Source: Patescibacteria group bacterium (GTDB taxonomy: Bacteria; Patescibacteriota; Gracilibacteria; UM-FILTER-43-11). Taken from it: a stretch of 13,169 bases of DNA. The notes below the pieces were generated by a model. The model did no database searches and was not told the origin of the DNA. It was given only the letters and a program-made list of their open reading frames with translations. Where the stretch lies: contig JAHIYT010000129.1 of assembly GCA_018814945.1 (NCBI GenBank), forward strand, positions 1-13,169, written 5' to 3'. How positions within the stretch are numbered: position 1 is the stretch's first letter; every line of letters begins with the position of its first letter. The position numbers and the translations under genes are program-made. Positions 3,439 to 13,095 of the stretch are shown here, piece by piece.

Positions 3439-4014
3439 TTAATTTAAATATAGTCTAATTGTAAATTCTGCTTCTTTAAGCTCATTGTGTCCCCCAGTTT
3501 CCATAGTTTTGTAGTTTAGCGCAAAGCTAGTTATTCTTGTTATAAACCTGGAATTATAAAGCTCATCGAATGCTTTAAAGAACAATTCGGCATTATTATC
3601 TATTTCAAGATTAACCGTATAATCTGCAAAATGATCTAGGAATATTTGATTCTCTTTACTTTTAATTGTTATATCGGCCTTTTGGTCAATTATGGAAAAT
3701 AAGCTCTCTAGAAGTGCTATAAAGGGTATTACTTCATCGTATCCTGCGAATGCCTTATCGATCAGTATACCTGACTCTGTACTTTCTATGCTTTCGCTGG
3801 CTTCTATCATAGCAAGCCTTTCCAGTGAAGCCAGAGTAATTTTATCCTCTTCTATTTTTTGTAGATCATCATTTGTTTTTCCATGCAATATAGCACTACT
3901 GGATAAAGACACAATTATAAATAAAACAAAAATAGCATTGGATATAATAAGTATCCTCAAGAACATACTTTCTTTTATGACTTTCCAAATTTTTCTAATT
4001 AGGCTTTTTTTCAT
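3439..4014 (-). CDS. pilO: PilO-like type IV pilus inner-membrane protein
   Basis: This bitopic membrane protein is probably the PilO partner of PilN in the alignment complex. From the ATG at 4014 it is 191 residues: a short basic cytoplasmic tail, one transmembrane helix (about 18-42), a coiled-coil-like stretch (TNDDLQKIEEDKITLASLERL), and an alpha/beta extracytoplasmic part of about 100 residues. The frame is also open to an ATG at 4053, which would add 13 residues and overlap pilMN by 32 bases. The 4014 start sits 7 nt after the pilMN stop and is preferred because the extra residues are polar and precede a typical MKK basic start. Sequence similarity to PilO is weak; the call rests on size, topology and position directly after a PilM-PilN gene. 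Confidence 0.7.
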   Translation of the reverse strand: MKKSLIRKIWKVIKESMFLRILIISNAIFVLFIIVSLSSSAILHGKTNDDLQKIEEDKITLASLERLAMIEASESIESTESGILIDKAFAGYDEVIPFIALLESLFSIIDQKADITIKSKENQIFLDHFADYTVNLEIDNNAELFFKAFDELYNSRFITRITSFALNYKTMETGGHNELKEAEFTIRLYLN

Positions 4015-4021
4015 TGTTATA

Positions 4022-5767
4022 TTATTGTTCGTTTTCGATATTTTCACTGCCATCTGTAGGTTCGCTAGCTTCTTCAGATGCAGGTTTCGGGGCTAATATT
4101 TTAGGCTTTGAACTACTTTCTACCTCTTCTTCCATTTGCTTTTTGGAATTAGAATAATTAGCAATTATTGCCTCTGGATCAAGAATTAAATCCATGTTTA
4201 CGAATCTGTCCCCTTTTCCTACAAGATTTGAAAGAGGAGAATCTACTTCTCTAAAAAATGCTTCCTCTTCCAGTTCTACTATAAGCTCCTCTGTTAGTTC
4301 ACGATTAGCAACTTTTCCCCTTAACCGCATGATATGCTCATTTGCTTTGTTCATGCTGTAGTTTATGTTTATTAAGCTTATTCCATTAACATTATAATCA
4401 TCAATTTTTCTCATTACCCTACTAACGGGTATCGTATCTGCTAAAATTTTGTTTATTTGACTTTCCAATTGAATTTTTTGTTGTGTAGCCTGAGCAACTT
4501 GTTTTAAGTAAGGATTCTTGGTTTGCTCTTCATATAAGATTGCCTCTTGTTTGGTTATTTTATGTTCAAGATAGCTCTCCGTAATTGAAATACCAGCAAA
4601 TAACATAAAAACTATTACTATTAAGTAAACGAGCAAAGAATATCTCATAACCATAGGCAATAATTGTGCTGTTTCTATTTCTTCCTTCCTTTCATTTGGC
4701 AGTAGATTGATTTCATTTTCATATTCTTCTATAAGCGTTCCCCTGATAGCTAAGCCAATTGCTTTTGGATAAAATAATTCAGTTGTTTCATCTAGCTTTA
4801 TATATTCGAGATCTTGCTTGATATTAATATCTGGGAATGTCTCCTGAAAAGTTTCTTTTAAGCCGGGTACACATGAATGGCATCCTATTAAATATATAGT
4901 TTGAAGATCAATATCTTCCTGAGAGCTTATAGCCCTTATAAGATCTTTTGTTTTTTGTATTATTAGTTCGAATTCATTGTTTAACTGGGATCTTATATTA
5001 CTTCGATCTTCCGGTTTTATTAGGCTTTCATTATGTTTTGATGCAAAAATCAAATTGTGCAGTTCTTCAGTGCTCGATATATTTAATATTTCCTTTATCT
5101 TATTATCAAATTCTTCACCTCCAATTTGTGCACTCAGATTATGAGAATGTCCTGATGGATTGGCAATACTTATTGTAGATTTTTCCAGTTCGATATTAAC
5201 TATCGCAAAGCTGCCTTCGTTGCTATTAAAACGATTGTTACAGTAACGTATAATACTGTTCTTATTAACATCTACTCCAACGACGTTCAATCCCTCGTCT
5301 TTTAATGCATTTATAAGTGAGTTGACTATATTTTTTTGGATGGCTACAAAATTAAACGTAACAATTTTTTTATTTAAACCTTCCTTAATTTGTTTAAAGT
5401 CAATAATTGCATCGTTTAATTCAATTGGTATGAAATCTTTTGCCAGATTTTTGATAAATTCCTCATCTTTACTGTGTTCTTTTGGAACATCTATGTGATG
5501 ACCGAAAGTTTTTTCTTCAGGTATTGAAATTATTACATTCTTTGATGTGATTGGCCCATTTTTTGCCTCAAGTAATACTGTTTTTAATGCTTCTTTGAAC
5601 CCTTCTATGTTTACAATAATACAGTCATCTTCCACTATTCCCGGTTCCAATGAAACCATTGAATAATTAACAACCCTAAACCCACTTTTTCCATGAGCCA
5701 GCTCCACTGCAGTAAGTGAAGTGTTGCTTATTTCTAACCCGAATATGTTCTTGAAAATGTTAGACAT
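4022..5767 (-). CDS. PilM-PilN fusion protein of the type IV pilus alignment complex
   Basis: One 581-residue chain covers what are normally two proteins. Residues 1 to about 345 are PilM-like, an actin-fold cytoplasmic protein that begins FGLEISNTSLTAVEL. Residues 353-357 are INLLP, within INLLPNERKEE, the PilN N-terminal motif that normally docks into PilM. A transmembrane helix (about 376-396) and a PilN-like extracytoplasmic domain (to about 540) follow. The chain ends in an acidic Ser/Pro/Glu-rich tail of about 40 residues. There is no stop or start between the halves. The nucleotide-binding motifs look degraded: GLEIS for GLDIG, VNIEL (190-194) in phosphate-2, and GCHSCVPGL (295-303) where GGG/GGA-x-x-PGL is usual. 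Its role would be to link the cytoplasmic ATPase and PilC to PilO. The ATG lies 4 nt after the preceding stop. Confidence 0.88.
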   Translation of the reverse strand: MSNIFKNIFGLEISNTSLTAVELAHGKSGFRVVNYSMVSLEPGIVEDDCIIVNIEGFKEALKTVLLEAKNGPITSKNVIISIPEEKTFGHHIDVPKEHSKDEEFIKNLAKDFIPIELNDAIIDFKQIKEGLNKKIVTFNFVAIQKNIVNSLINALKDEGLNVVGVDVNKNSIIRYCNNRFNSNEGSFAIVNIELEKSTISIANPSGHSHNLSAQIGGEEFDNKIKEILNISSTEELHNLIFASKHNESLIKPEDRSNIRSQLNNEFELIIQKTKDLIRAISSQEDIDLQTIYLIGCHSCVPGLKETFQETFPDINIKQDLEYIKLDETTELFYPKAIGLAIRGTLIEEYENEINLLPNERKEEIETAQLLPMVMRYSLLVYLIVIVFMLFAGISITESYLEHKITKQEAILYEEQTKNPYLKQVAQATQQKIQLESQINKILADTIPVSRVMRKIDDYNVNGISLININYSMNKANEHIMRLRGKVANRELTEELIVELEEEAFFREVDSPLSNLVGKGDRFVNMDLILDPEAIIANYSNSKKQMEEEVESSSKPKILAPKPASEEASEPTDGSENIENEQ

Positions 5768-5771
5768 TAAG

Positions 5772-6245
5772 TTAGCTTGTTAATTCTTCAACAGATAAAA
5801 TATCAATACTGTTCATATATTCTTGTGATCCGTCTGAATAATTTACGTCAAATCGTGAGATATTTAATTGATAGCGAAAGTTTCTGTTAAATGTATTACT
5901 TGTTCCGGTTACATTTAGTGTTGCTAGTGTTTCAGTAATTCCTGGTGCTACTACTTCTGGAGTAAACCATTCGATAGAAGTTGCGCAAGAATCTTCATCG
6001 GTTATTGTGTAATTTAAATTTGTAGAAAATTCTTGTTCCCCCTTTATTCTATAAAGTACATCCTCTAGGCAGGTAACAGCGTTAACTCTGGAATTTTCAT
6101 AAAAAATACTACTTAATGAAAGTGATGCATTATCTACACCATCTTTCAGCATGGACATGGCAAAGATCATACTAATGGTAGTAATAATCAGAAGACTGAC
6201 TATTGCTATGAACCCCTGAGGTTTATTATTTTTAGATATTACCAT
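5772..6245 (-). CDS. PilX/GspK-like minor pseudopilin
   Basis: This small pseudopilin has 157 residues. It starts with KPQG followed by FIAIVSLLIITTISMIFAMSM, so the predicted cleavage is after G11 and the hydrophobic helix spans about 12-32. There is no Glu at +5 of the mature form (Val is there), as in GspK and PilX-type tip pilins that do not need to dock to a preceding subunit. Two cysteines, C59 and C87, may form a disulfide around a small beta region. The ATG overlaps the stop of the upstream giant pseudopilin in ATGGTAA, and the pilMN gene follows after 4 nt, so it is translationally embedded in the operon. It is likely part of the priming or tip complex. PilX-like assignment rests on N-terminal architecture and size, not on full-length similarity. 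Confidence 0.75.
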   Translation of the reverse strand: MVISKNNKPQGFIAIVSLLIITTISMIFAMSMLKDGVDNASLSLSSIFYENSRVNAVTCLEDVLYRIKGEQEFSTNLNYTITDEDSCATSIEWFTPEVVAPGITETLATLNVTGTSNTFNRNFRYQLNISRFDVNYSDGSQEYMNSIDILSVEELTS

Positions 6246-8317
6246 TTAAGATGTAAGGTGAAATAATCTATAAGCATAAAACAAGGTGCGCTATCACTTC
6301 CTTCTGGCGGAATGCCATCCCAATTAAAATTGAATCTGGCTTTTATCATAATATCATCGGTGCCACCAACGTATTTTAGAACATCTGTTTCGTCGTATTT
6401 AACTTCCCAGGCTTGTTGGTCGCTTATTTCGCCATCAACAGTAGGTGCACCTATAACTTCCCATGATTCAGTATCCCAGTTATATAGTTCTACGTCTTGA
6501 TTGCCAACTAGACTACCATTCATTGGACAGTTTGAGCTTAAGGTATCACAGAAGAATTGTCCTAAGCTTTGGTAGGCGGTTTCACCACCAACGGTTATGC
6601 TTTTTAGTTCAGTTAGCTGTATTTGTGTAAGAACTGATTTAAAGGTTTTTTCCCAGTATACTGATTCCTCACCACTCTGAGTCCCACCGATAAAAGCTGG
6701 GTTGTCAGTATCATCATCTTCAAATGTGTACCAATGTGAACACCATTCCGGGAAGGCTTCATCCCATTTGTAGCATAAATCAGTATATACATTGGTTGTT
6801 ATAATTCCTGTTCCAATATCACCACAATCATCTGCACAGCCACCTTCACAATAACAAATGTAACGATCGGTTTCATAAATACTTGTTTCTGGAGGATTAA
6901 TAACATTTGCATTTGTGCCAAAATCGAATTCAACCGAAATCAATTCTTCTTCTGAATATGCAGAGCTAATCAGGAATGAATAGGAATCTCCGGCTATTCC
7001 ATCTAATTCAATTGCATATCCATTCACATCAACAAGGTAGTTATTTTCATTAGTAATTATGTTCACTTCAGTTCCACCAGTTGTTTCGGTTGTCACCGTA
7101 ACTGTGTCTGAACCATTTTCAACTTCAATTATAAATACATCTGTTTTTTCAGTTTGTTCAGATGATCCCAATACTTCATCTGCATCATGAAACTTAACTC
7201 TATTATTCCATTCCTCTGGTGGGGTGGCATCTGAATAGAATGTAACTTCATAATTTGCATAATTTCTCCTATCAACCATTAACCATGGTATATATTGTGC
7301 TGCTAAATCTGCTCCTAAAATTATAACTTTGTTAAATACTGGTAGATTGTCCATTTCTGTTACTGCTTCTAAAATTCCTTCCGGTAATATTGTATTTGCT
7401 ACAAAGACTTGTCTAAAGTGTCCGTTCGTCAGTAATGGGTGTGCATCTATTAGTGCGGTTAGAACAGTAGGGGACAATGGAGAAGCAGCTAATAATATTG
7501 ATTTTAAACTTGAGCTAGATAATGGTGGATTCTGATTTATAAGGTCTAATAATTGATCATCCGGGCTACAGTCATAAGCACCACCCAGGCCTCCGCCCCC
7601 ACCTCCACCCTCTCCTCCGAAGGCACTGGAATCACACTCATCTCCTATGTTATCTGCATCGTAATCATCCTGAAATGGGTTATAAGCAAGTACGCAGTTA
7701 TCCAACTCGTTACAAACACTATCACCGTCTGCATCTCCGCAACATTCTGCATGCTTTGGAAATACATCCAAATAGTCAGGGCATCCGTCCTCATCATAAT
7801 CTCCGTTTTCCAAATTAGCTGACACTACATAATCCTGAGGTACGTCATAATCTTCGAGCCCGCTAATTCCAAGTCTTATGTTAACACCCAAAACTATATC
7901 CGGGTCGTTTAGTATATCTGTAATTCTTTCAAAATATAAACTTTCAACTACCGTGTCATGAGAAGAAAGGTCAGATGTAACACCATCTTCAGTTATTTTT
8001 ATTTTATTATCAGCAGGATTTAATTCAATTATTACTGAACTATCGTCTTGCATTATTAAAGACAGCTTTCCATTGGGCTCATTTAAAACAGATCCCGCAA
8101 CATCAACTTTTTTTGCATCTATTATAATGTCATACACCCTTTCTACAACGAATCTACTATCTGTGCTCACTTGTTTTTCAACGGTGTGTCTTTCCTCAAG
8201 TTTTAGTGAATTTATAGATACTGTGAGCAGTATAGGAGTTAATACTAGAAAAACTGCTATATATAGGAGTAGTTCTATAAATGTTGTTCCCCCTTTGTTT
8301 TTAAATACGTTTTTCAT
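6239..8317 (-). CDS. giant modular pseudopilin with TSP3 calcium repeats, copy 2
   Basis: This is a 692-residue pseudopilin, several times the normal size. Leader KNKGG is followed by TTFIELLLY: cleavage after G10, Glu+5 at E15. A PilW/GspJ-like pilin region runs to about 170. Thrombospondin type 3 calcium loops follow at 173-229 (DYDEDGCPDY, DADGDSVCNELD, DYDADNIGDECD). Next come a poly-Gly linker (about 234-246), a helical repeat region with SPLSPTVL, a variable middle, and a Cys-rich beta-type C-terminal domain (about 488-692) ending FTLHLKW. It is a tandem paralogue of the gene upstream, with near-identical ends and a different middle. The frame is open to an ATG at 8353, but alignment with the paralogue favours the ATG at 8317. 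It probably acts as a calcium-stabilised adhesin at the pilus tip; ligand unknown. Jelly-roll or lectin-like folding of the C-terminal domain is only my inference. Confidence 0.85.
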   Translation of the reverse strand: MKNVFKNKGGTTFIELLLYIAVFLVLTPILLTVSINSLKLEERHTVEKQVSTDSRFVVERVYDIIIDAKKVDVAGSVLNEPNGKLSLIMQDDSSVIIELNPADNKIKITEDGVTSDLSSHDTVVESLYFERITDILNDPDIVLGVNIRLGISGLEDYDVPQDYVVSANLENGDYDEDGCPDYLDVFPKHAECCGDADGDSVCNELDNCVLAYNPFQDDYDADNIGDECDSSAFGGEGGGGGGGLGGAYDCSPDDQLLDLINQNPPLSSSSLKSILLAASPLSPTVLTALIDAHPLLTNGHFRQVFVANTILPEGILEAVTEMDNLPVFNKVIILGADLAAQYIPWLMVDRRNYANYEVTFYSDATPPEEWNNRVKFHDADEVLGSSEQTEKTDVFIIEVENGSDTVTVTTETTGGTEVNIITNENNYLVDVNGYAIELDGIAGDSYSFLISSAYSEEELISVEFDFGTNANVINPPETSIYETDRYICYCEGGCADDCGDIGTGIITTNVYTDLCYKWDEAFPEWCSHWYTFEDDDTDNPAFIGGTQSGEESVYWEKTFKSVLTQIQLTELKSITVGGETAYQSLGQFFCDTLSSNCPMNGSLVGNQDVELYNWDTESWEVIGAPTVDGEISDQQAWEVKYDETDVLKYVGGTDDIMIKARFNFNWDGIPPEGSDSAPCFMLIDYFTLHLKW

Positions 8318-8346
8318 TTTTAATATTAGGTAATTAATAGAGGGTA

Positions 8347-10941
8347 TTACCATTTAAGATGTAAAGTGAAATAATCGATTAACATAAAACATGGTGCGCT
8401 CTCACTACCTTCTGGTGGCACTCCTTCCCAATTAAATTCTAATCTCGCTTTGATTAAATCATTATCATCACCACCTATGAATTTAAGGACGTCACCGTCT
8501 TCATAAGTAATTTTCGATTTTTGCTGGTCACTGGTAGAACCATCTGCATTTAAAACACCAATGACTTCCCATGTTTCATTAGTCCAATTATAAAGTTCAA
8601 TATTTTGGTTTCCTACTAAATTACCGCTCATTGGGCAGTCAGCATGGTACTCATCACAATAAAATTGACCAATACTTTGATATGCAATTTCTGTTTCTAT
8701 ACTTATTTTTTTCAGCTCATCGTGTTCTCTGTCTGATAATGATAATTTAAATGTTTTTTCCCAATAACCGCTTTCTTCTCCTATCTGATTGCCTCCTATG
8801 TAAGCTACGTTCAGGGAATCGTCGTCTTGGAAGGTTTTCCATTTTACACACCATTCAGGGTAAGAATCATCTGCTAAATAGCATTGATCTGTAAAAATGT
8901 CACCTATATATATACCAGTACCTGTGTCTCCACATTCATCTTCACATCCTCCCGGGCAATAATCGGTGATACGTGTTAGGTAGTAATCATCGTTGTTAAT
9001 TGGATCGGTAATAACAAGATCTCCTTCCTGGTTCTTGTAAAATTGAAATTCAGCGTATTCCAATGGTTGTGTATTTGCCACACTACTTACGCTAAATACA
9101 TAAGTATAAGCAATACCTTCGTTATTACATCCCTCTTCCCCCTCAATACATTCTTCATAGTCAGGGAAAGTTATCAGCAATACTAGATCTTGAAAATCTG
9201 CAGAGGATGTATCTAGTGAACCAAATTCATATAGTATTATGACCTGATTAAGTTCAACAGATATCTTCCCATCTTGATCAATATACGGAGCAAGTATTTC
9301 CGATATACCCTGTTGTACATCAAAAGCGTCATAATTTGGTAAATCACTGCCATTTTGTAACACAAGAACGTGTGCATCTCCATCATCTGAATAATAGCTT
9401 TGATCAAAATTGTTGTAATATTTGGCACGCCCTTTAATAGCAATATCTGTTTGAGAATCCAGAATTTTCGAGTAAGATTCATCACCATCTTCATATAGAG
9501 TTACATAAACGTCCACCTCCGGTCCGCCCGAGCCGTAAGTTATTTGTGAAGCGATTACATCTACTATCATTTCTCCCGAAGGTGCAACGATATTTCCATT
9601 ATTTTCAATCCCTATATCATCAATTGTTCTGCTTTTATAATCTATTAACCAACCTTTTTCATCCAAAATAACTTCTCCTACCGTATTGAAATAAGTTGTA
9701 TCATCACCGTCACTATATGTTTTTACTGACAAATTTATAATATCTCCTACAACTGTCATGGTGAATATATCGGTTTTATAAGTCTCAAATTCTCCTAATT
9801 CGTAATTTGGGTTTTTAAAACTTACCTTTTCTTTTCCATCATTCTCCACTTCGTACACAATATTATTGGTTGGGTCTTCTCCTTCCACCCATAATACTGC
9901 TTCAGCTTCTTCGTGTGCGTCTATTATCTTATTTTTGTAATTGTCATCTATATTTTCCATTGCCAATAAGTTTATATAGACATCACCCGGTAGTTTTACG
10001 TTATTAACAAAAATATCCTTAAAATGACCATCTTTTATTATTTCGTCTTCCCCCTCATTTTCTTTTATATCAATTAGTGCGTTTAGTACTGTTGGTGATA
10101 AAGGTGAAGAAGTTAAAAGAGTCTTTTTTAGCTTGTTTGATTGTACGGGGGGTTCGTAATTAATAAGTTCTAATTGCTGACTTTCATTACTGCAATTAGG
10201 AGATCCGCCGCCATCTGAACCTCCGCCTCCTGTTCCGTAGGCTGTTAAATCACATTCATCTCCTATGCCATCTTCGTCATAATCTTCCTGAAATGGATTG
10301 TAAGTCAATATACAGTTATCCAGTTCATTACAGGTGCCATCAGCATCCGCATCTCCGCAACATGCTGCGTGTTTAGGAAATATATCTTTGTAATCTGGAC
10401 ATCCATCTTCATCATAATCTCCATTCTCTAAATTTGCTGAAACTACGTAATCCTGAGGTACATCGTATTCTTCAATTCCGCTAATCTTGAGCCTCATATT
10501 AACACCCAAAATTATATCCGGATCATTTAATGTGTCCGTAATTTTTTCGAAATACAGGTTTTCAATTACAGCGTCTCCAGAAGAAAGCTCATAAGTAATA
10601 TCATCTTCGGTTATCTTTACCTTATTATCATTAGGATCCACCTCAATTATTACTAAGCTGTCATCCTGCATTACTAATGATATCCTTCCATTTGCAGCGT
10701 TAAATATAGAATCTTCAACATCAATTCTTTTTGCGTCTATTATGGTGTCATACACCCTTTCTATTACAAATCTACTATCTGTGCTTACTTTTTTTTCAAC
10801 AGTGTGTCTTTCCTCAAGTTTCAGTGAATTTATAGATACGGTAAGTAGTATAGGGGTTAAGGCTAGAAAAACTGCTATATATAGGAGTAGCTCTATAAAT
10901 GTTGCACCTGCTTTGTTTTTGAAAATATTTTTATTTTTCAT
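8347..10941 (-). CDS. giant modular pseudopilin with TSP3 calcium repeats, copy 1
   Basis: At 864 residues this is the larger and first of two tandem paralogues. Leader FKNKAG is followed by ATFIELLLY: cleavage after G12, Glu+5 at E17. A PilW/GspJ-like region is followed by thrombospondin type 3 loops (175-231, Asp-rich with paired Cys), a Gly/Ser linker, and a helical repeat region containing SPLSPTVL. An acidic beta-rich middle of nearly 400 residues has no counterpart in the other copy. The C-terminal domain (about 660-864) contains CPGGCEDECGDTGTG, IELYNW and CFMLIDYFTLHLKW. The cysteine content fits an exported disulfide-bonded protein. The gene begins 3 nt after the PilV-like stop. DNA of the pilin region is close to copy 2, for example 28 identical bases at 10863-10890 and 8245-8272. 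A tip adhesin role is inferred from architecture. Confidence 0.88.
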   Translation of the reverse strand: MKNKNIFKNKAGATFIELLLYIAVFLALTPILLTVSINSLKLEERHTVEKKVSTDSRFVIERVYDTIIDAKRIDVEDSIFNAANGRISLVMQDDSLVIIEVDPNDNKVKITEDDITYELSSGDAVIENLYFEKITDTLNDPDIILGVNMRLKISGIEEYDVPQDYVVSANLENGDYDEDGCPDYKDIFPKHAACCGDADADGTCNELDNCILTYNPFQEDYDEDGIGDECDLTAYGTGGGGSDGGGSPNCSNESQQLELINYEPPVQSNKLKKTLLTSSPLSPTVLNALIDIKENEGEDEIIKDGHFKDIFVNNVKLPGDVYINLLAMENIDDNYKNKIIDAHEEAEAVLWVEGEDPTNNIVYEVENDGKEKVSFKNPNYELGEFETYKTDIFTMTVVGDIINLSVKTYSDGDDTTYFNTVGEVILDEKGWLIDYKSRTIDDIGIENNGNIVAPSGEMIVDVIASQITYGSGGPEVDVYVTLYEDGDESYSKILDSQTDIAIKGRAKYYNNFDQSYYSDDGDAHVLVLQNGSDLPNYDAFDVQQGISEILAPYIDQDGKISVELNQVIILYEFGSLDTSSADFQDLVLLITFPDYEECIEGEEGCNNEGIAYTYVFSVSSVANTQPLEYAEFQFYKNQEGDLVITDPINNDDYYLTRITDYCPGGCEDECGDTGTGIYIGDIFTDQCYLADDSYPEWCVKWKTFQDDDSLNVAYIGGNQIGEESGYWEKTFKLSLSDREHDELKKISIETEIAYQSIGQFYCDEYHADCPMSGNLVGNQNIELYNWTNETWEVIGVLNADGSTSDQQKSKITYEDGDVLKFIGGDDNDLIKARLEFNWEGVPPEGSESAPCFMLIDYFTLHLKW

Positions 10942-10944
10942 TTT

Positions 10945-11469
10945 TTATGATGAATACGTAATCGTTTTCTGCCAGTTCGTAATATAAATAGTTTGTGTTA
11001 TTAAATCTAATGGCAAATAGTCCGGCGCCCATAATATTTGAATTTCTATTTTTTTAGTGTTCGGATCTTCATGATTCGGTCCTGAATCACCATCAAAATA
11101 AATGTTATTCGTACTGTCGTGTCTTAATGCATTTGAAACCGTAATATATCTCTCAAAAGTATCTTTATCCGGTAGGTCATTTTTTACTAACCATGAATTA
11201 GATCCTGGATTTCTAATTAAATAGAAAGATCCATTTGCTATTAAGTCGAACCCCTGATTCCTCATATACCTTAATATATCGTTTGTTTCACCCAATGTGG
11301 TTGCTGCAGAATGCTGAATATATGCCTGACCATTAATCTTGCTTGCACTGATGAATATACCAATAGAAGTTGGAACCAAGATTGCAAATAATATGGTTAC
11401 AATAATCAATTCGACTATGCTCGATCCCTTTTTATACTCTTTGATTTTTTTAATTATTTTAGTTAACAA
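10945..11469 (-). CDS. PilV/GspI-like minor pseudopilin
   Basis: This minor pseudopilin has 174 residues. The Lys-rich leader IKKIKEYKKG precedes SSIVELIIVTILFAILVP: predicted cleavage after G15, mature Ser+1 and Glu+5 at E20, helix to about 40. The rest is a mixed alpha/beta domain without cysteines. The only possible start is TTG at 11469, overlapping the upstream gene by 11 bases; a TAA closes the frame a few codons further up. An AAGGAG directly abuts this TTG, one of the very few Shine-Dalgarno-like strings in the window, so initiation probably depends on coupling with the upstream stop. The closest described class is PilV/GspI by position after a GspH/FimT-like gene and before PilW-like genes. 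The subclass is less certain than the pilin identity. Confidence 0.82.
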   Translation of the reverse strand: MLTKIIKKIKEYKKGSSIVELIIVTILFAILVPTSIGIFISASKINGQAYIQHSAATTLGETNDILRYMRNQGFDLIANGSFYLIRNPGSNSWLVKNDLPDKDTFERYITVSNALRHDSTNNIYFDGDSGPNHEDPNTKKIEIQILWAPDYLPLDLITQTIYITNWQKTITYSS

Positions 11470-11926
11470 CTCCTTGCGCGTTAATATTTATTGTATAGCT
11501 GTAATTGGCGTCTCCTATAGTAAAATTGCCATAATTATCAGTTTTGCCCGTTTGTGTTTGGAAAATTATTTCGTCGGTGACTCCGATGCTAGGATTAAGA
11601 CTTAAATCAGTAATATTTAATTGTTCCAGTTGCACAACTGTATTCTCTGTATCGAATGGGCTATATGTTTTTCTAAATCCTGTAATTGTTCTTGTGGGAA
11701 CGTCTATGTGAATACCATAATCTTCACTTGTTGGGTTCTTTAGAGCCTTAAATCTAGTTTGCCCTATTAGGGTTAGCACATTGTTTACATCTGCTTTTAC
11801 CAACGAAAATGAATAATATTGAAAATATGCTCCTACTCCAACTCCAGCCAATAATAGGAATAATGAAATTGTGATTATCACTTCTATAAATGAAAATGCC
11901 TTTATTTTTTTATTTAGGAATTTCAT
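11459..11926 (-). CDS. GspH/FimT-like minor pseudopilin
   Basis: This minor pseudopilin has 155 residues. After the leader MKFLNKKIKA comes FSFIEVIITISLFLLLAGVGVG, with Glu+5 at E15. The residue before the cut is Ala10 rather than the usual Gly. The helix is followed by an alpha-1 continuation (ADVNNVLTLIGQTRFKALKN) and a beta-rich C-terminal half with IIFQTQTGKTDNYGN, resembling GspH/FimT proteins, which help nucleate pilus assembly. The ATG shares one base with the pilC stop (TAATG), indicating coupled translation, and there is no Shine-Dalgarno. The next gene starts inside its last codons. Confidence 0.82.
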   Translation of the reverse strand: MKFLNKKIKAFSFIEVIITISLFLLLAGVGVGAYFQYYSFSLVKADVNNVLTLIGQTRFKALKNPTSEDYGIHIDVPTRTITGFRKTYSPFDTENTVVQLEQLNITDLSLNPSIGVTDEIIFQTQTGKTDNYGNFTIGDANYSYTININAQGVVN

Positions 11927-13095
11927 TAATTACTTACATTTGAAATTAATTGATAGATAGGTCCGATAACCGTTACCACAAGGCCGGCAACCATTAATCC
12001 GAGTAAAACCATAATTACCGGTTCGATTATTGTCGTAATATTTTTTACATCTTCATCTACAAGATTTTTGTAATAACCTTTTAAATAATCAATAACATGA
12101 GGTAGCTTACCAGTCCTTTCTCCTACCTTAATAAGCTTTATGAACATAGGAGGAAAGATTGATTTTTCTTTAAAACTATTTGAAAAAGAAGATCCGTTTT
12201 TAATTTTATCTACCATATAATTTACTTCATCTCGGAAAACTGTATTGTTTATAACCGATTCGGTGATTTCCAAACATCTTATAATGGTTAATCCACTCGC
12301 AAATAATGTACCGAAATGCTGACCCACTTGTGTTGTGTTATAGTTGAGTACTATATGTCCTACAAATGGAAACTTTAAAAAGAGCATATCTTTATGACCT
12401 TTTATTATTGGGTTTTTTAGTATGAAGTGACCACCAATAATCACACCGGCTATTACGAGCCCAATCATTAAAATATTACCCTCAATAAATTCTGTTATTC
12501 CAATAGTGATTTTGGTTGCTAGTGGTATTTCTGCATTTAAACTGTAGAAAATTGTAAGAATTCTAGGCATTACAAAGAAAAAGAGCACAAAAAGGAACAG
12601 CACCATAACCGAAAGAATTATCTTCGGATATAAAAGTGCACCTTTTACTTTACTTTTAAATTTATCATTTTCCTCTAAGTGGTTTGCAAGGTCACTCATG
12701 GTTTCTGCCAGTGATCCCGATTGTTCACCAACATGAACGATATTCGTATATATTTCAGGAAATACTTTAGGAAACTTTTTCATTGATGCAGATAAGGATT
12801 GTCCATTATTTAAACTCTCAATCACGTTATCTAAACGGCTTGCAAATACCTTGTTTCTTGATTGATCTCTTAAAAATGTAATAGCTTCAAAAATAGTAAC
12901 TCCAGCACTTATCATTACAGATAAATGTCTTGTAAATTCAACTACCTCTTTAGAAGAAATTGTTCCAATTTCGCTAAGTTTTGCAAATATACCTTTTTTC
13001 TTTTTGGTAGGTTTCTTTATATTGAATTTTATTTCTTCTATTTCCGTTTCATTACTTTTTGTTTCTTGCATATCCCTTTCTTCAAGCTTATTCAT
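11926..13095 (-). CDS. pilC: type IV pilus inner-membrane platform protein PilC
   Basis: PilC (GspF family) is the polytopic platform that passes motion from the assembly ATPase to the growing pilus. The 389 residues from this ATG hold two GspF-type cytoplasmic helical domains (about 52-155 and 255-355), each with the conserved GE-x-x-G turn (GEQSG 123-127, GERTG 325-329). Three membrane helices lie at about 159-180, 208-226 and 357-384. This is the expected layout. The first 50 residues are a charged low-complexity tail. The reading frame stays open without a stop from 13095 to the window edge at 13169 and keeps the same Glu/Lys/Asn/Ser character, so the true start may lie outside and the gene may be 5'-partial here. 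It is the first visible gene of the operon; PilB and PilT would be expected further upstream. Confidence 0.95.
   Translation of the reverse strand: MNKLEERDMQETKSNETEIEEIKFNIKKPTKKKKGIFAKLSEIGTISSKEVVEFTRHLSVMISAGVTIFEAITFLRDQSRNKVFASRLDNVIESLNNGQSLSASMKKFPKVFPEIYTNIVHVGEQSGSLAETMSDLANHLEENDKFKSKVKGALLYPKIILSVMVLFLFVLFFFVMPRILTIFYSLNAEIPLATKITIGITEFIEGNILMIGLVIAGVIIGGHFILKNPIIKGHKDMLFLKFPFVGHIVLNYNTTQVGQHFGTLFASGLTIIRCLEITESVINNTVFRDEVNYMVDKIKNGSSFSNSFKEKSIFPPMFIKLIKVGERTGKLPHVIDYLKGYYKNLVDEDVKNITTIIEPVIMVLLGLMVAGLVVTVIGPIYQLISNVSN

Follow-up and report, generated by a model that had tools for sequence, protein, structure and literature searches.

Two Tandem Giant Pilins with Kindred Stems and Different Heads in the GspJ/PilW Slot of a Pilus Operon from Uncultivated Peregrinibacteria

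Gene Content of the Locus

The window, by which we mean the whole stretch of 13,169 nucleotides that was analyzed, comes from a 1.03-Mb draft genome that is divided into 187 contigs and is estimated to be 89% complete. Its contig starts at pilC, and the genes on the minus strand follow in the order pilC, H-type pilin, I-type pilin, giant pilin 1 (G1), giant pilin 2 (G2), K-type pilin, pilM(N), pilO-like gene, and major pilin (Table 1), the labels H, I, J, and K being given by operon order. Past the major-pilin end of the operon lies recG, on the opposite strand. A tandem pair of giant pilins had been predicted here, and both open reading frames are present, encoding 864 aa in the first copy and 692 aa in the second when the latter is read from an internal ATG at 8317; no ribosome-binding site is obvious by eye at either start of G2. 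The sequence of the K-type pilin has no Glu at +5, an absence reported as a trait of GspK/PilX (PMC7541494). A prepilin peptidase is also encoded in the genome of the window, as indicated by a partial PF01478 match above the cut-off at a contig edge.

Table 1. Pilus genes of the window, with the basis of each assignment
Feature	Coordinates	Strand	Basis
PilC/GspF platform protein	11926..13095	-	PF00482, E 1.3e-57
H-type minor pilin, 155 aa	11459..11926	-	N_methyl match near cut-off; H by operon order
I-type minor pilin, 174 aa, directly upstream of G1	10945..11469	-	N_methyl below cut-off (E 0.095); operon order
Giant pilin copy 1 (G1), 864 aa	8347..10941	-	ORF and alignment
Giant pilin copy 2 (G2), 704-aa ORF; 692 aa from ATG at 8317	6239..8353	-	ORF and alignment
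K/PilX-type minor pilin, 157 aa	5772..6245	-	No family match; prepilin-like Gly then FIAIV
PilM with C-terminal PilN-like extension	4022..5767	-	PF11104, E 4.1e-18; extension inferred from length and position
PilO-like protein	3439..4053	-	Position and size; no meaningful family match
Major pilin candidate, 190 aa	2792..3364	-	N_methyl E 1.3e-8

Architecture and Conservation of the Giant Pilins

In both giants a prepilin leader runs up to a Gly and is followed by A/T-T-F-I-E, which places Glu at +5; next come a hydrophobic helix and a stem some 170 residues long. In G1, the leader and pilin stem (1-172) are succeeded by a neck of the thrombospondin type 3 (TSP3) type (173-232), a Gly linker (233-249), a middle region (250-660), and a C-terminal domain (661-864); the corresponding parts of G2 are the stem (1-170), neck (171-232), linker (233-247), middle (248-484), and C-terminal domain (485-692). 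The Gly-rich stretch that had been predicted to be a hinge lies in both proteins between neck and middle. The parts beyond the stem (neck, linker, middle, and C-terminal domain) amount to about 520 residues in G2 and 690 in G1, and between the linker and the C-terminal domain G1 has about 170 residues that are absent from G2. The copies are 57% identical overall and have in common the C-terminal domain of about 207 residues, which terminates in FMLIDYFTLHLKW.

A protein search returned 51 matches, 48 of which are relatives over most of their length at an E value of 1.5e-151 or better, so the architecture is not a product of chance. The 48 include both window copies and a truncated row, P0048; P0049 to P0051, which match the query over 4-6% of its length through TSP3-type sequence, were dropped from all family work. 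A second search with the C-terminal part gave 53 matches, 18 of them new, and brought the family to 66 proteins. Its named members are assigned to Peregrinibacteria or Patescibacteria, save one filed as Marinimicrobia, and the 14 named contigs of giant-bearing genomes are divided among Peregrinibacteria (8), Patescibacteria (4), and Gracilibacteria (2).

Conservation was assessed in an alignment of 47 rows, with the truncated P0048 omitted here and from the trees. Gly at -1 and Glu at +5 occur in 47 of 47 aligned members, which bears out the prepilin cleavage site that had been proposed. Fifteen Asp columns of the neck are conserved in 40-47 of the 47 rows and six Cys columns in 41-47, and the C-terminal domain has seven Cys columns conserved in 43-47 (G2 positions 490, 494, 498, 515, 526, 590, and 597, all earlier than the last 14 residues). 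The two giants do share an ending, as the original prediction held, but this ending is not Cys rich: a single Cys occurs among the last 14 residues, and fewer than 30% of members share a Cys in that column. Mean pairwise identity across the family comes to 0.68 for the helix and 0.51 for the remaining stem, 0.69 for the neck, 0.44 and 0.35 for the two middle parts, and 0.60 and 0.59 for the two parts of the C-terminal domain. The second middle part varies in length from 131 to 380, and it is the linker, the middle, and the opening part of the C-terminal domain that account for the large differences in length.

The proposed succession of pilin anchor, neck, linker, and grafted C-terminal part stands, with one point against the simple picture, namely a C-terminal domain that is conserved and a middle that is variable. 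Since the two regions differ in this way, recognition specificity may lie in the variable middle; the conserved C-terminal domain may serve as a structural cap and the middle as the recognizing part, or the roles may be reversed. The conservation of the C-terminal domain is unexpected for a specificity head and counts against the explanation of the locus that we favor.

When the family profile was compared with the PDB, chains of thrombospondin-2 and COMP were matched through the neck at E values of 1e-19 to 3e-16, and thrombospondin-1 was also among the significant matches through the neck; geopilin matched the stem at an E value of only 0.04. These matches and the conserved Asp and Cys columns agree with the TSP3-type, Cys-bearing neck that had been read from the window; this neck, with its conserved Asp columns, may bind calcium. 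The Pfam model TSP_3 (PF02412) gave the window copies 16.8 and 13.1 bits, each below its cut-off of 25, and matched 39 of the 48 members at E 0.5 or better (best, 3.2e-15). No PDB chain matched the C-terminal domain, and no convincing Pfam or NCBIfam family was found for this domain or the head. None of these sequence searches gave a match to a binding-type domain, a result that weighs against the explanation we favor. TIGR01711 (gspJ) had no match at E 0.1 or better in either giant, and PF05567 (PilY1) matched neither window copy and only 1 of the 48 members (E 0.011). The latter was set aside as a weak Pfam match, along with SpaA_3 (E 0.0017, in G2) and YjcQ (12 of 48). Chou-Fasman averages did not separate the regions of the giants.

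Distribution and Operon Context

A giant is encoded in 13 of the 18 genomes of the window's own family, in two of them (G379 and G385) as a piece at a contig end. Among the matches listed in a scan of 379 genomes of the phylum, those to the whole profile came from the window genome and from G360 of the same family; the others listed were matches to the stem, mostly in open reading frames of about 140-230 aa with some longer, or TSP3 stretches of other proteins. Across 353 genomes of the class, the stem-plus-neck profile aligned at full or nearly full length in 15, these being the 13 of the family, G664, and G399, and the head profile found a match in 14 of 192 class genomes. A head match in G418 (E 0.001, 41 positions, no pilin) was judged to be due to chance. 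G664 is filed in another family, yet its contig has the same operon and upstream genes as the window family; its giant may reflect either a binning error or a transfer, and because the locus is of the window-family type we left it uncounted as an independent lineage. The version in G399, which belongs to a further family, is distant and consists of a stem, neck, Gly linker, and relative of the C-terminal domain (E 4e-14) followed by DUF4215 repeats.

These relatives combine a pilin with a TSP3-type neck and are sited inside pil operons. In 8 of the 12 other giant-bearing family genomes (G360, G381, G382, G383, G384, G387, G388, and G389), a single giant is contiguous between I- and K-type pilins, and the other four loci (G379, G380, G385, and G390) are interrupted by contig ends; G664 likewise has one giant between I and K. 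This slot, the GspJ/PilW position, is occupied in the window by two giants. A close orthologue of the I-type pilin (at least 61% identity) occurs in 12 of the 18 family genomes, including that of the window, and all 12 have a giant. Upstream in the relatives are genes that, from sequence and position, we read as pilT, response-regulator-like, and pilB; a close orthologue of their pilT-like protein was not seen in the window genome, where the best match is 44% identical and lies on a different contig.

A second pil operon, comprising pilC (27-31% identical), H, I, and a J-type pilin of 170-209 aa, was found in seven family genomes, six of which bear a giant, at each of the seven loci inspected; G381 is an eighth candidate. 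A pilB-sized gene accompanies it in 6 of the 7 and a K-like gene of 124-127 aa in 4 of the 7, and G391 has the second operon only. Identity between the short J pilins and a giant is only 21-25%; BLAST matched five of the seven to a giant (E 7e-7 to 0.005) and left two without a match, and a sixth was linked by a profile match. From the J slot and the short J pilin of the second operon, we interpret the giant as a J-type pilin onto which a head has been grafted, and G1 and G2 are most likely modular pilins of the tip complex in the GspJ/PilW slot.

With a single giant in 8 of 12 related genomes and the other four interrupted by contig ends, the tandem pair is atypical. This might mean that G2 is redundant or in decay, a duplicate with no role of its own, but both frames are open and align across the conserved Cys and Asp positions, and tandem giants probably recur in G390 and G399, so we hold such redundancy to be quite improbable. 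The evidence in these two genomes comes from contig ends and not from a spanning contig. In G390, the contig with H, I, and a giant ends in a repeat, after which the initial codons of a further giant appear. The longest stretch that this contig shares exactly with the contig carrying a giant, K, and pilMN is 55 bases and starts at base 77 of the second contig; the repeat preceding these 55 bases has no end-to-end match. In G399, one contig with pilB-like and pilC fragments ends inside a giant, and another starts inside a giant-like frame, after which come a 972-aa giant, pilM, a pilO-like gene, and major pilins.

Histories of the Stems and Heads

The likeness of G1 and G2 is unevenly distributed: identity is 0.77 in the stem and 0.79 in the neck, 0.43 and 0.25 in the middle, and 0.55 and 0.66 in the C-terminal domain. 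Alike stems in a draft of 187 contigs might raise the suspicion that the tandem is an assembly artefact, but the copies differ over their whole length (later parts are as little as 25% and at most 66% identical) and their frames join cleanly, so that such an artefact has only the slightest probability. The head of G2 is closer to P0012 than to G1, with identities of 0.74, 0.67, 0.83, and 0.71 in the head parts, but its stem is not (0.59). The trees follow the same pattern. G1 and G2 are grouped in the stem tree (99/94); the head tree groups G2 with P0012 (99/95) and places the G1 head on a long unresolved branch. P0009, P0033, and P0036 are included in the head tree and absent from the stem tree and the quick trees, and P0052 to P0069 are in the head tree only.

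In the quick trees, constraining the stem to G2 plus P0012 was rejected (p 0.0085), constraining it to G1 plus G388 gave p 0.059, and constraining the head to G1 plus G2 was not rejected (p 0.315). In keeping with this last value, much of the amino acid pattern could be accounted for if the G1 head evolved faster at the protein level. A change-point test of the triple G2, G1, and P0012 gave 53:20 and then 17:144 (p 0.0005). Four of seven chosen triples had p < 0.01, with G2 as the child in all four; among 150 random triples drawn from other rows, mostly more distant ones, none reached this level.

Silent codons at residues identical between G1 and G2 gave 87/130 in the stem (45% expected at saturation), 26/48 in the neck (55% expected), 90/193 in the head (46% expected), and 14/20 in the last 24 codons (42% expected), and stem and head differ at a Fisher p of 4e-4. 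Expressed as excess over saturation, the value is 0.40 in the stem (0.56 in the first 60 codons) and 0.02 in the head. When the giants were compared with P0012 and G388, the excess ranged from -0.09 to 0.34, the highest being the neck of G2 and G388, and five flanking genes ranged from -0.00 to 0.20; the G1/G2 stem therefore has the highest silent excess, though not far above the best other comparison. Because of the silent-site contrast between the copies, we favor conversion of the stem, and we read the pattern as a stem and a 3' end that were homogenized within the genome and heads that diverged in the distant past. Selection acting on the DNA sequence at the gene ends may be an alternative to homogenization.

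Two further histories were considered and set aside. A recent transfer of the head between the lineages of the window and P0012 is unsupported, the silent excess of G2 and P0012 being 0.17 in the stem, 0.01 in the neck, 0.25 and 0.23 in the middle, and 0.08 in the C-terminal domain, with no part standing out in the range of 0.01 to 0.25. Two ancestral head types, type I in first copies and type II in second copies, receive a split of only 82/69 in a larger tree, which also moves P0026, the row that had seemed closest to the second copy of G390.

It is conceivable, though we regard it as doubtful, that tandem giant J pilins form a head-exchange cassette, in which gene conversion within the genome would keep the stem and last codons alike as heads are kept different or imported. 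If so, both copies would fit the same tip, and one bacterium would possess two recognition heads that can be exchanged.

Function of the Giant Pilins

The explanation that in our view best accounts for the locus is that G1 and G2 would be modular minor pilins filling the GspJ/PilW slot in a type IV pilus operon. The prepilin peptidase would cut the stem of each giant, and the stem would pack with the I- and K-type minor pilins into a pilus-priming complex that presumably remains at the tip; the TSP3-type neck would keep the large head away from the pilus shaft, and the head would bind a partner cell or surface. The cell would have two tip subunits, with stems that are kin and heads long diverged, either at the same tip or at alternative tips, and its pili could thus present two different heads. 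On the strength of the modular-pilin architecture, TM7x PilX2, and the tip-complex precedents of Myxococcus xanthus, we think it probable that both giants are tip-displayed pilus subunits that bind a partner cell or surface.

The conserved C-terminal domain, with its invariant Cys and Trp, and the J-slot position would also suit a tip-complex pilin whose C-terminal part is structural and either primes assembly or plugs the machine and stops retraction, with no ligand on another cell. Priming and cork roles have been proposed for the PilY1/minor pilin complex of M. xanthus (PMC7541494), and the 18 family genomes have no PilY1 match, although 14 controls are silent as well. The variable middle with its large insertions in some members would, however, be superfluous for a plug, as would two different heads in one genome, and the second operons of the family manage with a J pilin of 170-209 aa. 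We therefore consider a structural head unlikely.

A pilus for DNA uptake, with a giant head that binds DNA at the tip, has a precedent in the discussion of type IV pili and ComEC for host-DNA uptake in Vampirococcus (PMC8080830). Neck and head appear acidic by eye, however, no convincing DNA-binding domain was matched, and the window proteins scanned include no ComEC- or ComEA-type match, which makes DNA binding improbable.

If the giants are, as we favor, tip-displayed binding subunits, one gene in a fixed operon slot provides a candidate tip-binding protein for 13 of the 18 genomes of an uncultivated family of Peregrinibacteria, and the tandem pairs are natural experiments on whether a difference in heads brings a difference in partners.

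Comparison with Known Systems

Long pilins are a known kind; the unusual feature of this locus is a pair whose stems are kin and whose heads differ. Modular pilins are widespread, with more than 1,200 proteins in 264 architectures listed in 2021, among them a Falkowbacteria protein of 860 residues, and have been argued to be likely exposed at the tip, with a place in the shaft also possible (PMC8179133). G1 and G2 have the features of this class, namely the Gly (-1) and Glu (+5) of an N-terminal class III prepilin signal and an extra module C-terminal to the pilin. They resemble PilB and PilC of Streptococcus sanguinis, in which a small N-terminal pilin with a class III signal peptide carries a bulky C-terminal module on a linker, and adhesion has been demonstrated for PilB (PMC8179133). 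The S. sanguinis modules are vWA or lectin domains (PMC8179133), whereas the giants have a TSP3-type neck and parts with no known domain, occupy the J slot, and are in tandem. The main text of the modular-pilin paper contains no occurrence of "TSP" or "thrombospondin" (PMC8179133), and among the open-access papers searched, which are a part of the whole literature, we found none joining thrombospondin type 3 with pilins or modular pilins with the candidate phyla radiation.

By architecture, the giants can also be likened to PilX2 and PilX1 of Nanosynbacter lyticus TM7x, which are Patescibacterial minor pilins with added C-terminal domains (PMC12206443). Deletion of pilX2 lowered the hosts bound from about 10.6% to 4.6% and did not abolish association, and no mutant reported there lost host association entirely (PMC12206443). 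PilX2 differs from the giants in its predicted C-terminal beta-propeller and in having no predicted PilD signal, and PilX1 is predicted to be jelly-roll-like (PMC12206443). The contribution to host binding was measured for T4P-2, to which PilX2 is assigned and which is apparently a pilus with no retraction ATPase, and in the locus that bears pilT, deletion of pilA1, pilV1, and pilW1 could not be achieved (PMC12206443). The analogy is imperfect because the giant-type operon has a pilT-like gene upstream in relatives.

Like GspJ/PilW, the giants are encoded between I- and K-type pilins and keep Glu at +5; GspJ has been called nonmodular (PMC8179133), whereas the giants are modular and have no match to the gspJ HMM. 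They also recall CofB of enterotoxigenic Escherichia coli (ETEC) and the PilY1/PilC tip adhesins, for which large nonpilin domains are proposed at the tip. CofB has a beta-repeat and a beta-sandwich (PMC8179133), whereas the head of the giants has no PDB match, and PilY1 is not a pilin, whereas the giants are prepilins and the window copies have no PF05567 match. In M. xanthus, minor pilins and PilY1 reportedly make up a complex that primes the pilus and sits at its tip, and several gene clusters have been suggested to yield tips of differing properties (PMC7541494).

Variation at the giant pilin loci

The locus of G664 (L149, on contig C23), a genome with a single giant pilin between minor pilins I and K, is of the same type as those of the window's family and has the same upstream genes, yet the genome is filed in family f5; this may reflect either a binning error or transfer. 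In G399, from a further family of the class, the pilB-like and pilC stretch that lies upstream of its giant is split into several frames (L148, on contig C25), for which sequence error or another cause may be responsible. The precomputed Pfam domain PF27237 is present in six proteins closely related to the G399 giant (P0070-P0075). Within the window's own family, a short, partly masked tandem repeat lies between the two G390 giants (end of L043, start of L038), and by eye L112, a different contig of this genome, has a similar one.

Other pilin genes

The window genome (G000) encodes another large pilin (N_methyl, E 3.1e-7), whose neighbors are pilins of 180 and 163 aa and putative pilB and pilC genes. 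By eye, its C-terminal part resembles NHL/propeller repeats; Pfam called none in this protein at E 0.01. In G259, of the same class, I-like and J-like frames are adjacent, the latter containing 11 DUF4215 stretches. Some relatives have two or three consecutive major-pilin-like genes, compared with one in the window.

Coordinates of pilin genes outside the window
Feature	Locus	Contig	Position	Length (aa)
Large pilin	L107	G000:C46	5777-7735	652
I-like frame	L150	G259:C10	2166-4106	646
J-like frame	L150	G259:C10	4094-7888	1264
Consecutive major-pilin-like genes	L036		14970-16814	
Consecutive major-pilin-like genes	L048		12258-13463
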